The notes under the pieces: generated by a model
The model's database searches: none
What the model was told of the DNA's origin: nothing
Seen by the model: the letters and a program-made list of their open reading frames with translations, nothing else
NCBI RefSeq assembly: GCF_017571495.1
Contig: NZ_JAGETZ010000001.1
Coordinates: forward strand, 558,001-622,000
Reading direction: 5' to 3'
DNA length: 64,000 nucleotides
Source: Hymenobacter negativus
GTDB lineage: Bacteria > Bacteroidota > Bacteroidia > Cytophagales > Hymenobacteraceae
Shown: positions 4,148 through 7,027 of the stretch, piece after piece
Position numbering within the stretch: position 1 is the first letter of the stretch
Layout of the letters: each line of letters starts with the position of its first letter
Program-made: the position numbers and the translations under genes

Positions 4148-4206
4148 AAAAACGCCAGAAATGAGCCAGAAAGCAGCAATGCCGGTCCTCGTTTCTGGCA
4201 TTTTTG
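4147..4206. terminator. Bidirectional intrinsic terminator
   Basis: AAAAACGCCAGAAATGAG on the left pairs with CTCGTTTCTGGCATTTTT on the right around a 22-nt loop. It has A-tract and T-tract ends, so it can work in both directions. Confidence 0.65.
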
Positions 4207-4213
4207 CGTTGCG

Positions 4214-4241
4214 TGGTACCCAGAGCCGGGACCGAACCGGC
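4214..4241 (-). other. tRNA 3'-half remnant (T-arm, acceptor strand, encoded CCA)
   Basis: On the minus strand a perfect 5-bp T-stem GCCGG/CCGGC encloses a TTCGGTC loop, followed by TCTGGGT, A and CCA. The variable-arm-like bases before it (CAGTAGGCGT) recall a class II tRNA such as tRNA-Leu. No matching 5' acceptor strand or D-arm is found in the next 130 bp, so this is not a complete tRNA gene. It may be the remnant of an attachment site or another decayed tRNA-like element of the neighbouring cluster. Confidence 0.45.
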
Positions 4242-4369
4242 ACGCCTACTGCACTTACCGAGCGGTTGGGCTCATCTGCCCCGCCGGACCGGCAGTGAAT
4301 ACCAGGCTCGGAGTATGAAATACTGGTCGGGTTGTTACATTGCACCCCAATACTTACCTGTTCCGGTTT

Positions 4370-4440
4370 GAAAAAGCCAGGTCAAGAGCGGCTTACTTCT
4401 TTTTCTGAAAAAAATAGCTGTTCAATTACCTGGTTTTTTC
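4370..4440 (+). other. Long hairpin carrying the motif shared with the tRNA-like genes
   Basis: A 13-bp stem (4370-4382 with 4428-4440, one G-T pair) closes a 45-nt loop. The segment CAGGTCAA, six variable bases, CTTACTTCT (4379-4400) also occurs inside the enlarged anticodon loops of the two downstream tRNA-like genes. The stem strand GAAAAAG echoes their acceptor strands GAAGCAG and GAAACAG. It may be a relative that has lost D- and T-arms. Confidence 0.4.
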
Positions 4441-4481: not shown

Positions 4482-4593
4482 GAAGCAGTAGCTCAGCGGT
4501 AGAGCATGAAACAGCGCTGGAATTATCCATCAGGGTCAACCAGCGCTTACTTCTGGGATTTTAGGGTCGTTGGTTCGAATCCAACCTGCTTCA
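4482..4593 (+). ncRNA. tRNA-like RNA 1 with a 47-nt anticodon loop
   Basis: 112 nt. The acceptor is GAAGCAG (4482-4488) with CTGCTTC (4586-4592) and discriminator A. D-arm GCTC-AGCGGTA-GAGC (4491-4505) has the usual GG. The T-arm is GTTGG-TTCGAAT-CCAAC (4569-4585), and the variable loop is GGGTC. The anticodon stem TGAAA (4507-4511) pairs with TTTTA (4559-4563), but the 7-nt loop is replaced by 47 nt (4512-4558) containing a perfect 8-bp stem (4513-4520 with 4540-4547). No CCA is encoded. It cannot decode as it stands unless the insert is removed, and the insert is far too short for a group I intron. It lies about 190 bp upstream of the RING/TerD-like gene, on the same strand. Confidence 0.7.
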
Positions 4594-4633
4594 CCCGGTG
4601 GTTTAGGTGTGGGGCACCTGGGCTACGCCTTTT

Positions 4634-4755
4634 GAAACAGTCGTCTAATGGCAGGACGTCGGACATCTATAGTTTTATTATTACCTAAGCCAGGTCAAGT
4701 AAGACTTACTTCTGAGCTTATTCCGAAAACGCTGGTTCGAATCCCGCCTGTTTCA
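4634..4755 (+). ncRNA. tRNA-like RNA 2 with a 58-nt anticodon loop
   Basis: 122 nt. Acceptor GAAACAG (4634-4640) pairs with CTGTTTC (4748-4754), discriminator A. The D-arm GTC-TAATGGCAG-GAC is of the tRNA-Gln/Glu type. The T-arm GCTGG-TTCGAAT-CCCGC has one mismatch. The anticodon stem TCGGA (4659-4663) with TCCGA (4722-4726) is perfect, but the loop is 58 nt and holds a hairpin: TAAGC/GCTTA (4686-4690 with 4716-4720), CAG/CTG and AAGTAAG/CTTACTT (4697-4711). Acceptor stem and inner motif are close to those of tRNA-like RNA 1. A T-run (4759-4764) follows, and the RING/TerD-like gene starts 28 bp after the RNA. It may be a free RNA or a leader element of that mRNA. Confidence 0.7.
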
Positions 4756-4783
4756 CACTTTTTTGCAGCTTTCCACCTGCTCC

Positions 4784-7027
4784 ATGAATCAAGCCCTACT
4801 GCAGGTTAGCCTGCGCCAGAAAGCTGTTTACGTTCCATCCGACGCTTCAACCAGCAGCCTGCCGGAGCCCCCTACCCTGCCCGATGCCACGGCCGTGCTG
4901 GTGGCCAACCTGGCCAAATTAGGCTATGGCGTTTCGGAACCGCTGCTGCGGGCGCTGGAACATACGACACCGGACTTTCAGGCGCAACTGCTGGAGGTGG
5001 TGCGCGAGGTGATGGGCGTGAAAAAGAACTGGACGCCGCTGGTGAAAGCCTGGGGCACGCCCACCGGCGAAAGCCGGCTGGACCATGTGCTGACGTTTTT
5101 CGCCAACGTTTTTCAGGCGAAGGGCACCCTATTACCCTGTGGCCACATCATTCCGCCCGATACCTTTCCGCTGGCTCGTTACAATGGCTGCCCGTTCTGC
5201 GGCACTCCCTTCAAGTTTGCTGAGATTGAACACGTAGGGCAAGGCAGCAAGCTGAAAGTACTGGACTTGTGGACGGAGGCTGACGTAGCAAACCTGCTTC
5301 GCGATTTACTGGCTTCAAAGACAGCGCTCGATGCCACGCAGGTGGACAGCCTGCGCCGGCTGCTGGCAGAGCTGCCGCTGCCCACGGAGGTGCCCATTGC
5401 CATGAAGGAAACCCGCCTGGCTGTGGTGGACGCCTACGTGCAGCTCGGCCAGCCCGCTCAGGCGCAAGCGCTGTTCTCGACGCCGACTGATGTTCTGCGG
5501 TACTTGTGGTATCAGAAAACCGGCTTATTGCAGCTGGTGGAGCCAAAAGTCATCCGGCAGCGCCGACAGAAAAACGCCCGTAGCATCGGCTGGTCGGTGG
5601 ACCGCAGCGCGCAGGCACAGGCGCAAGCCCGGGCCGACCTCAAGCTCAAATACAGCCGGCGCGAGGCCGCCATGGTGGCGAGCTGGCTGAATGCACTGCC
5701 GCAAAGCCCCGCGCAGCTCTGCGAAATCATGCACCCGAAACGGGGCATGTGGGTGCGCTTCATTCGGGCGCTGCGGCTGGCTGAATACAGCAAGCGGCCA
5801 GCGCTGGGCAAGCTGCGCGAAACGCTGGACGTGTTTTACAACCAAACGTACGAGGTATGGCAGGGGCGCGTCGACCATTTCCGGTTGCGGCTCGACGCCG
5901 ACCACACTTTTGCACTGCTGAAGCAGCGGCCGGGGCTGTTTGCCCGCTCGCTGTTTGCCAACATGCTTTGGTTTGGGGCCGAGCCCGCCGTGGCGGCGTT
6001 TGCCGAAGTGCTCGACCAAGTACCGGCCCGGCTGGTGGTTACGCTGGCGATGTACGCCGAGGACTATTTCATTCCTGGCAACAAGCGCACGGTGAAGCCT
6101 CTGGGTGGCAGCAGCAAGCAAATAAAGGCTAATCAGCTGCTGAAGAACTACACGCCGGAGGAACTGCAAGCCATGCAGGCAGCAGTGGTAGACTTGTGCA
6201 TGCTGGCCATGCGGCGGCGGTTTGCGGCCCTGCCTACACCGCACCGCACCATGTACATCGACCCGGCCTTGTTCAAAATTCCCCTGGCCATTGGCGACCG
6301 GAGCGACACGGTGCAGGACCTGCCGGCGGCGCTCATGGGCACCCGGTTTGCGGTGGAGGGCGAGGCAGTGCGCTTGTTTATGCAGTGGGGCGTGGGCCTA
6401 TCCGCGCAGCACCTGGACATGGATTTGAGTTGCACCATTGCCTATGCCGCTAAAATGGACCATTGCTCGTTTTCCCAGCTGGTCACGACGGGCTGCAAAC
6501 ACAGCGGCGACATCCAGTACGTACCCAACCAGGTTGGAACGGCCGAATACATCGAGCTGGACCTGGCGGCCCTGCAGCGGGCGCAGGCGCAATACGTCAC
6601 CTTCACGTGCAACGCCTACAGTGCCGGGGCGCTCAGTCCCAACCTCACGGTGGGCTGGATGAGCAGCCAGCATCCCATGCAGATAGCAGCGAGTGGCGTG
6701 GCCTACGACCCCTCGTGCGTACAGCATCAGGTGCGCGTGACGCAGAACCTGGCGAAGGGCCTGGTATTTGGGATTCTGGACGTGGCCCAGCGTGAGATTA
6801 TCTGGCTGGAAATGCCTTTCCAGGGCCAACTGGTGCAAAACCTGAACCAGGCCGGCGTGCAGACGCTGCTGCGGAAGCTGGAAAGCAAGCTGACCATTGG
6901 CCAGCTATTGACCGTGAAGGCTCAAGCCCAGAACCTGGAGCTGGTAGGGCATCCGGAGGCCGACGAAACATACACCGCCGCTTGGGCGCAGAACACCGCG
7001 ACAGTCACCCAACTCTTAGTCGACTAA
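4784..7027 (+). CDS. MXAN_6230/SCO0854-like RING, helical-repeat and TerD-like protein
   Basis: 747 residues from the ATG at 4784. A RING-like zinc site lies at C119-x-H121 and C136-x2-C139 (LPCGH, then NGCPFCG). Residues about 150-530 are alpha-helical and repeat-like (for example LLKQRPGLFARSLFANMLWFG), reminiscent of helical RNA- or protein-binding arrays. From about residue 545 there is a TerD-like beta domain (MDLSCTIAY, HSGDIQYVP, GTAEYIELDL). This order fits the family NCBI names after MXAN_6230/SCO0854, known from sequence only. The gene directly follows two tRNA-like RNA genes on the same strand, which suggests an RNA-handling or stress-response module. No partner protein gene is adjacent. 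Confident in the gene, moderate on the family, function inferred. Confidence 0.85.
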   Translation: MNQALLQVSLRQKAVYVPSDASTSSLPEPPTLPDATAVLVANLAKLGYGVSEPLLRALEHTTPDFQAQLLEVVREVMGVKKNWTPLVKAWGTPTGESRLDHVLTFFANVFQAKGTLLPCGHIIPPDTFPLARYNGCPFCGTPFKFAEIEHVGQGSKLKVLDLWTEADVANLLRDLLASKTALDATQVDSLRRLLAELPLPTEVPIAMKETRLAVVDAYVQLGQPAQAQALFSTPTDVLRYLWYQKTGLLQLVEPKVIRQRRQKNARSIGWSVDRSAQAQAQARADLKLKYSRREAAMVASWLNALPQSPAQLCEIMHPKRGMWVRFIRALRLAEYSKRPALGKLRETLDVFYNQTYEVWQGRVDHFRLRLDADHTFALLKQRPGLFARSLFANMLWFGAEPAVAAFAEVLDQVPARLVVTLAMYAEDYFIPGNKRTVKPLGGSSKQIKANQLLKNYTPEELQAMQAAVVDLCMLAMRRRFAALPTPHRTMYIDPALFKIPLAIGDRSDTVQDLPAALMGTRFAVEGEAVRLFMQWGVGLSAQHLDMDLSCTIAYAAKMDHCSFSQLVTTGCKHSGDIQYVPNQVGTAEYIELDLAALQRAQAQYVTFTCNAYSAGALSPNLTVGWMSSQHPMQIAASGVAYDPSCVQHQVRVTQNLAKGLVFGILDVAQREIIWLEMPFQGQLVQNLNQAGVQTLLRKLESKLTIGQLLTVKAQAQNLELVGHPEADETYTAAWAQNTATVTQLLVD

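Follow-up and report, generated by a model that had tools for sequence, protein, structure and literature searches.

Core-bearing tRNA-like RNAs beside a RING-TerD protein gene in Hymenobacter negativus: candidate anticodon baits

Permuted or intron-containing tRNA genes are found in archaea and algae, and T4 Pnkp/Rnl1, Hen1 and RlaP serve tRNA repair against anticodon nucleases. Both invite comparison with a locus of the bacterium Hymenobacter negativus, analyzed here in a 64,000-nucleotide stretch of contig NZ_JAGETZ010000001.1 (hereafter the window), in which three RNA elements sharing a core, two of them in tRNA-like bodies, stand directly before a gene for a protein with RING-like, helical and TerD-like parts. 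As in the archaeal and algal genes, tRNA parts are broken or permuted around a helical motif; unlike in those genes, the motif is a different one and most permuted elements lack a complete tRNA. As in T4-type repair, ligase, Hen1 and RlaP families adjoin the system in relatives, but here bait-like RNAs in an array come in addition. Our reading, held tentatively and at just short of an even chance, is that the window carries the Hymenobacter version of an RNA-protein system found in Bacteroidota, whose RNAs are protein-held anticodon baits, sensing or absorbing anticodon nucleases.

The closest parallel in overall plan lies with the Ro60/Y-RNA ribonucleoproteins (RNPs). The basal stem of YrlA binds Rsr and its tRNA-like domain binds PNPase (PMC8394870); the Ro60-type operon rsr-yrlBA-rtcBA combines such components with RNA repair, and tRNA halves with a cyclic phosphate trigger RtcR (PMC7790460). 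Like Rsr/Ro60 and YrlA, the present system encodes RNAs with a stem motif and a tRNA-like domain beside a predicted ring-type protein, and as in rsr-yrlBA-rtcBA, RtcB is found nearby, in 32 of the 80 relatives of the window system. Unlike Ro60, the protein shows no TROVE domain by sequence, carries TerD in place of the von Willebrand factor A (vWA) domain and has a RING finger; unlike YrlA, the RNAs have another core and display anticodon loops, in arrays. The same genome also has a separate TROVE-RtcB cluster. Of the defining features of the Ro/Y-RNA family, a TROVE domain by sequence, a vWA domain and an Rfam match to Y RNA were looked for here and not found. We regard the RNA motif with its anticodon arrays as new and the overall plan as a parallel of Ro/Y-RNA operons; the open-access literature searched, outside which most subscription papers lie, held no description of these core RNAs.

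A conserved RNA core and its protein partner

A preliminary description of this DNA had claimed two tRNA-like RNAs with anticodon loops of 47 and 58 nucleotides, both lying on the strand of a 747-codon gene and ending 28 bp ahead of it, and this proved correct. RNA1 (4482..4593, forward strand; supported also by its fold) and RNA2 (4634..4755, forward strand) score 53.6 and 44.6 bits with the Rfam tRNA model, above the gathering score of RF00005 in both cases, and both have acceptor, D and T arms. Their anticodon loops depart from the 7 nucleotides of a tRNA, and ARAGORN calls neither of them one; in the whole genome Rfam gives at least 41 tRNA matches, RNA1 included (150 of 172 candidates scored). 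The minimum free energy (MFE) fold of RNA2 differs from the cloverleaf.

The conserved core, the third element and the arrays in relatives were beyond what that description could see. The loops of RNA1 and RNA2 hold one common core pattern. Its consensus has two strands, [P1 8 bp]-NAUUAYC and GGUCAA-[P1]-UACUUC, such that NAUUAYC lies 3' of the helix P1 on one strand while GGUCAA precedes and UACUUC follows P1 on the other; a second helix, P2, starts by pairing of ACC with GGU. The RNA1 core (4513..4553) consists of P1 (4513-4520/4540-4547, present in the MFE fold), AATTATC (4521-4527), GGTCAA (4534-4539) and TACTTC (4548-4553), with TGGGA directly 3' of it (4554-4558). The RNA2 core (4671..4712) consists of P1 (4671-4678/4699-4706), TATTACC (4679-4685), GGTCAA (4693-4698) and TACTTC (4707-4712). 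The third element, element 0 (4371..4439, forward strand), recognized by its letters, a fold z of -5.8 and a GGTCAA-N8-TACTTC match, carries the core in circularly permuted order (type B), with P2 open and P1 closed by a loop. Its parts are P2 (4371-4382/4428-4439), GGTCAA (4380-4385), P1 (4386-4393/4416-4423), TACTTC (4394-4399) and AATTACC (4424-4430), and its display loop (4400..4415, forward strand) could form a TTT-CTGAAAA-AAA hairpin. Three of the four GGTCAA-N8-TACTTC matches in the genome fall at this locus, and the fourth, by eye, has no partner helix nearby.

At gathering scores tRNA is the sole Rfam family in the window, with no match to Y RNA, and at a relaxed threshold the only further matches fall far under their own gathering scores. 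Identity with a known ribozyme was likewise considered and rejected, no ribozyme family of Rfam matching the window. Eight of the 80 relatives, scanned in the same way, gave tRNA plus one unrelated Flavo-1 elsewhere in L020, the elements themselves matching the tRNA model only. On the reverse strand at 4200-4310 there is also a T-arm-like stretch (GCCGGTTCGGTCCCGGC...ACCA), not called a tRNA by Rfam and perhaps a tRNA remnant.

Across 81 loci (the 80 relatives and the window), 307 cores were paired from 354 elements designated y, 215 of them permuted and 92 not (type A). This first core finder favours elements that pair, and 47 of the 354 stayed unpaired; many of these represent one Flavobacterium element at about -165, with AATTACA as partner motif by eye, and locus L009 yields no core under the pairing rule despite its two y elements. 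When the rule was dropped (79 of 343 y elements then having no partner in range), P1 was paired at 7.17 of 8 positions in type B as against 4.47 with shuffled partners (99 distinct pairs), and at 6.26 as against 5.19 in type A (50 distinct pairs). The core thus shows compensatory changes, and G-U pairs, seen at most positions, point to RNA.

Conservation near homologues had been set beforehand as a test of the preliminary description, and it was borne out: the core is present upstream of the protein gene in 80 of the 81 loci, and a core-bearing tRNA-like RNA in 75. Among 395 genomes of the phylum, clusters of the core pattern occur in 11 and the protein in exactly those 11 (Fisher 1e-21, a statistic that ignores relatedness). 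Twenty-eight further genomes have one or two scattered pattern matches each; a reversed control pattern gave single matches in many genomes and three in one. The protein is rare in Hymenobacter, with any match in 10 of 150 genomes and a whole-length one in 7, our genome included. One strain of F. johnsoniae is among the carriers of the locus (L021). Core arrays reach as far as Segatella (48.7% protein identity); in Prevotella sp. oral taxon 299 (43.8%) only a degenerate core is seen by eye. In viral contigs the 14-base core pattern occurs in at least 120 stretches, with one match each in the 80 listed, and four phage records hold homologues of the protein, none spanning more than 80% of the query. 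One gut phage (MT835874.1, L261) encodes, besides four tRNAs and a tmRNA, a protein homologous to part of ours at 24% identity; the core pattern was not found in it.

The 747-amino-acid protein (4784..7027, forward strand) has a RING-like finger at residues 112-140 (Prok-RING_4, 25.7 bits), a helical domain at about 165-483 and a TerD-like domain at 525-691, the last with a TerD fold. The predicted helical domain resembles the Ro60 ring, its best match among solved structures; a sequence search of the protein against solved structures matched none. Pfam scans of the protein and of the 47 members of its set, to which it belongs, found no TROVE domain, and alignment of its profile with 16 TROVE proteins by hhalign gave 0.1%. 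No C-terminal vWA domain was found, TerD standing in that place, and PADLOC assigned the protein to 0 defence families. It is related over nearly its whole length to the MXAN_6230/SCO0854 family of RING proteins (NF041916, 152.5 bits over residues 11-683), at a score far under the equivalog cut-off of 600, and it belongs to a large family, with 3360 of 7996 scored proteins reaching E 1e-3 or better. It differs from the two distant members of the NF041916 type that were inspected, one from Variovorax and one from Streptomyces (~25% identity), in that no core pattern was found near these.

Anticodon loops on the cores

What the permuted cores close on is in 87 of the 215 cases an anticodon-type stem-loop, in 47 a T-arm, in 79 neither and in 2 a long stretch. 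By a rule that was set after examples had been seen (7-nucleotide loop, U33, purine at 37), anticodon stem-loops were counted in 57 of the 112 distinct loops without a T-arm, as against 12.2 in shuffles (at most 21), and after redundancy reduction in 12 of 29 as against 2.4 (at most 8). Loops identical to real anticodon loops, taken from this genome (40 tRNAs) or from one Flavobacterium (56 tRNAs), number 20 of 112 as against 1.0 in shuffles (at most 5), or 6 of 26 as against 0.33 (at most 3) after reduction; the real loops matched are those for Asn, Asp, Lys, Phe, Leu, Pro, His and Met. A stop anticodon appears in one of the 57. In element 0 of the window the hairpin loop CUGAAAA is identical to the anticodon loop of tRNA-Phe(GAA) and sits on a weak stem of three A-U pairs; the MFE fold prefers pairing of UUC with GAA. 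By eye, some permuted cores in other loci (L021, L023, L042, L055, L017) look as if they surround a mini-tRNA in circularly permuted order, with a T-arm, an acceptor-like stem capped by GAAA or GTAT and a D-like GG.

The displayed anticodons are diverse. They could be assigned in 75 of the 81 loci, with two or more in 62 and all different in 61 of these 62, counts that are dominated by Flavobacterium. Arrays reach 10 paired cores with differing anticodons, and up to six different anticodons occur in one locus. Of 22 positions compared across 46 Flavobacterium RNAs, the middle base of the anticodon varies most, which would fit an arms race. These displays agree with two of the roles suggested in the preliminary description, a decoy and a leader sensor of damage; its parallel with Ro/Y RNA is likewise supported, by the Ro60 ring as best solved match and by RNA-repair neighbours in relatives, and nothing was found in favour of its third suggestion, guide RNAs.

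RNA repair genes around relatives of the locus

Besides the RtcB genes already mentioned, the surroundings of the 80 relatives hold a T4-type RNA ligase in 16, Hen1 in 12 and RlaP in 10, with at least one of these four families in 52. RtcB or a T4-type ligase is present in 48 of the 80, and never both together in the stretches covered. Of 101 Flavobacterium genomes, all 17 that encode the protein also have RtcB, as do 27 of the 84 that lack the protein, a difference to which genome size and kinship may contribute. On a plasmid of Variovorax sp. WDL1 (L258, 2906-5881), a distant RING-TerD homologue faces a divergent four-gene cluster that ends in rtcR; a sigma54-type site at this locus (TGGCAC-N5-TTGCA), seen by eye and then searched for, has one match as against 0.01 expected. 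Forty-six of the 80 loci have a WYL regulator upstream, on the opposite strand, and in the window an AraC-type regulator lies downstream of the protein gene, also on the opposite strand.

Other neighbours recur as well. Five loci (L017, L071, L016, L030 and L067) have 3-11 ordinary tRNAs up to ~2 kb ahead of the core array and on its strand, as though a supply of spare tRNAs accompanied the system. In L029, L033, L041 and seven other loci, at about +2300 to +4131, a ~252-amino-acid protein is encoded, often adjoining a T4-type ligase and Hen1; the one member scanned has no Pfam match. The genome of H. negativus itself carries RtcB at four other places, and its contig C23 (L292, 300-9257) combines a TROVE/Ro60 protein, a macro-domain-like gene recognized by eye and two RtcB genes, with no Rfam match on that contig.

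What the RNAs may do

Among the alternatives to the bait reading, the strongest, still unlikely in our estimate, is a small bacterial tRNA intron, in which the core would be excised from the anticodon arm by an endonuclease or by itself and the halves joined by RtcB or a T4-type ligase. An RNA ligase is indeed often next door, and once the core is set aside a canonical anticodon arm appears in 37 of 60 distinct tRNA-like RNAs, at differing arm positions, 20 of the 37 with exactly the loop of an actual tRNA (controls: 1.0 in shuffles, and 10.5 with re-paired flanks, a value that close relatives inflate). Splicing of the permuted majority of cores, however, would yield no ordinary tRNA; the boundaries vary relative to the core, with best solutions 1-9 nucleotides away on the 5' side and 0-9 on the 3' side; and by eye the acceptor bodies are alike while the anticodons differ. 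Moreover, RNA1 and the RNAs of L001-L004 restore no canonical arm, and RNA2, which the arm-restoration script did not parse, has no U33 by eye. The residues left after core removal, C-UGGGA in RNA1, C-UAGGA in L001 and C-UUGGA in L002, may be read as anticodons UGG, UAG and UUG in which the core replaces U33. Because the permuted cores and the Hymenobacter copies misfit it, we keep the intron as a rival and not as our preferred account.

Slightly less probable again is a Ro60/Y-RNA-like RNP for RNA quality control, whose RNAs would gate the ring protein or tether it to enzymes that recognize tRNA shape, the loops being remnants or docking points. The resemblance of the predicted helical domain to the Ro60 ring, the two binding sites of YrlA (PMC8394870) and the operon parallel with rsr-yrlBA-rtcBA (PMC7790460) speak for it, but it leaves unexplained the anticodon loops that are kept, also on T-arm-less elements, and the high variability of their middle base. 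We regard as improbable that the cores are solely a cis-regulatory leader, serving as operators for autoregulation with the tRNA parts as processing signals that free the mRNA. A permuted core does begin 60-115 bases 5' of the matched gene start in 66 of the 81 loci, and the window RNAs end close to the gene; yet the window and most Hymenobacter loci lack this leader core, and the longest arrays, with their different anticodons, exceed what operators need. That the RNAs are decayed tRNA genes or chance structure is hardly credible, for although imperfect bodies, and bodies close to ordinary tRNA arrays, do occur, the core is conserved with compensatory changes and linked to the protein.

Anticodon loops displayed beside RNA-ligase genes are, we infer, best explained as nuclease bait or sensor, and the locus likely encodes a Ro60/Y-RNA-like RNP whose RNAs play that part. 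The core would be the putative binding stem of the protein, much as the basal stem of YrlA holds Rsr, and the RNA beyond the core a replaceable display. A tRNase cutting the displayed loop would be titrated; alternatively, the broken end of the cut bait could be read by the repair genes or by a regulator. RtcB, or the set of T4-type ligase, Hen1 and RlaP, may then repair both the bait and real tRNAs, so that the RNAs would protect tRNAs or raise an RNA-repair alarm. In many relatives the core lies near the start codon, and autoregulation probably occurs too. A more specific form is possible, at somewhat less than an even chance: a dedicated display array presenting panels of bait anticodons on a common core, held by the Ro60-like TerD protein, in which one bait is cut first. 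That the cut bait then protects tRNAs and calls in RNA repair, whichever anticodon nuclease attacks, we hold just as guardedly.

Some points weigh against the bait reading. First, RtcB is not present in the window and the ten surrounding genes match no repair family; because these neighbours hold no repair gene, the bait reading is weakened and the intron strengthened. Second, the window RNAs match a canonical anticodon arm worse than many of their relatives do. Third, an intron explains the restored arms of the tRNA-like RNAs equally well, though it does not account for the permuted elements.

Taken together, these findings add a structured RNA motif that is absent from Rfam and, across the 395 genomes sampled, always goes with one protein family. 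They suggest that the plan of Ro60 and its Y RNAs came about, or was reassembled, around another protein, and with RNAs that carry anticodon loops the idea of a tRNA bait becomes testable.
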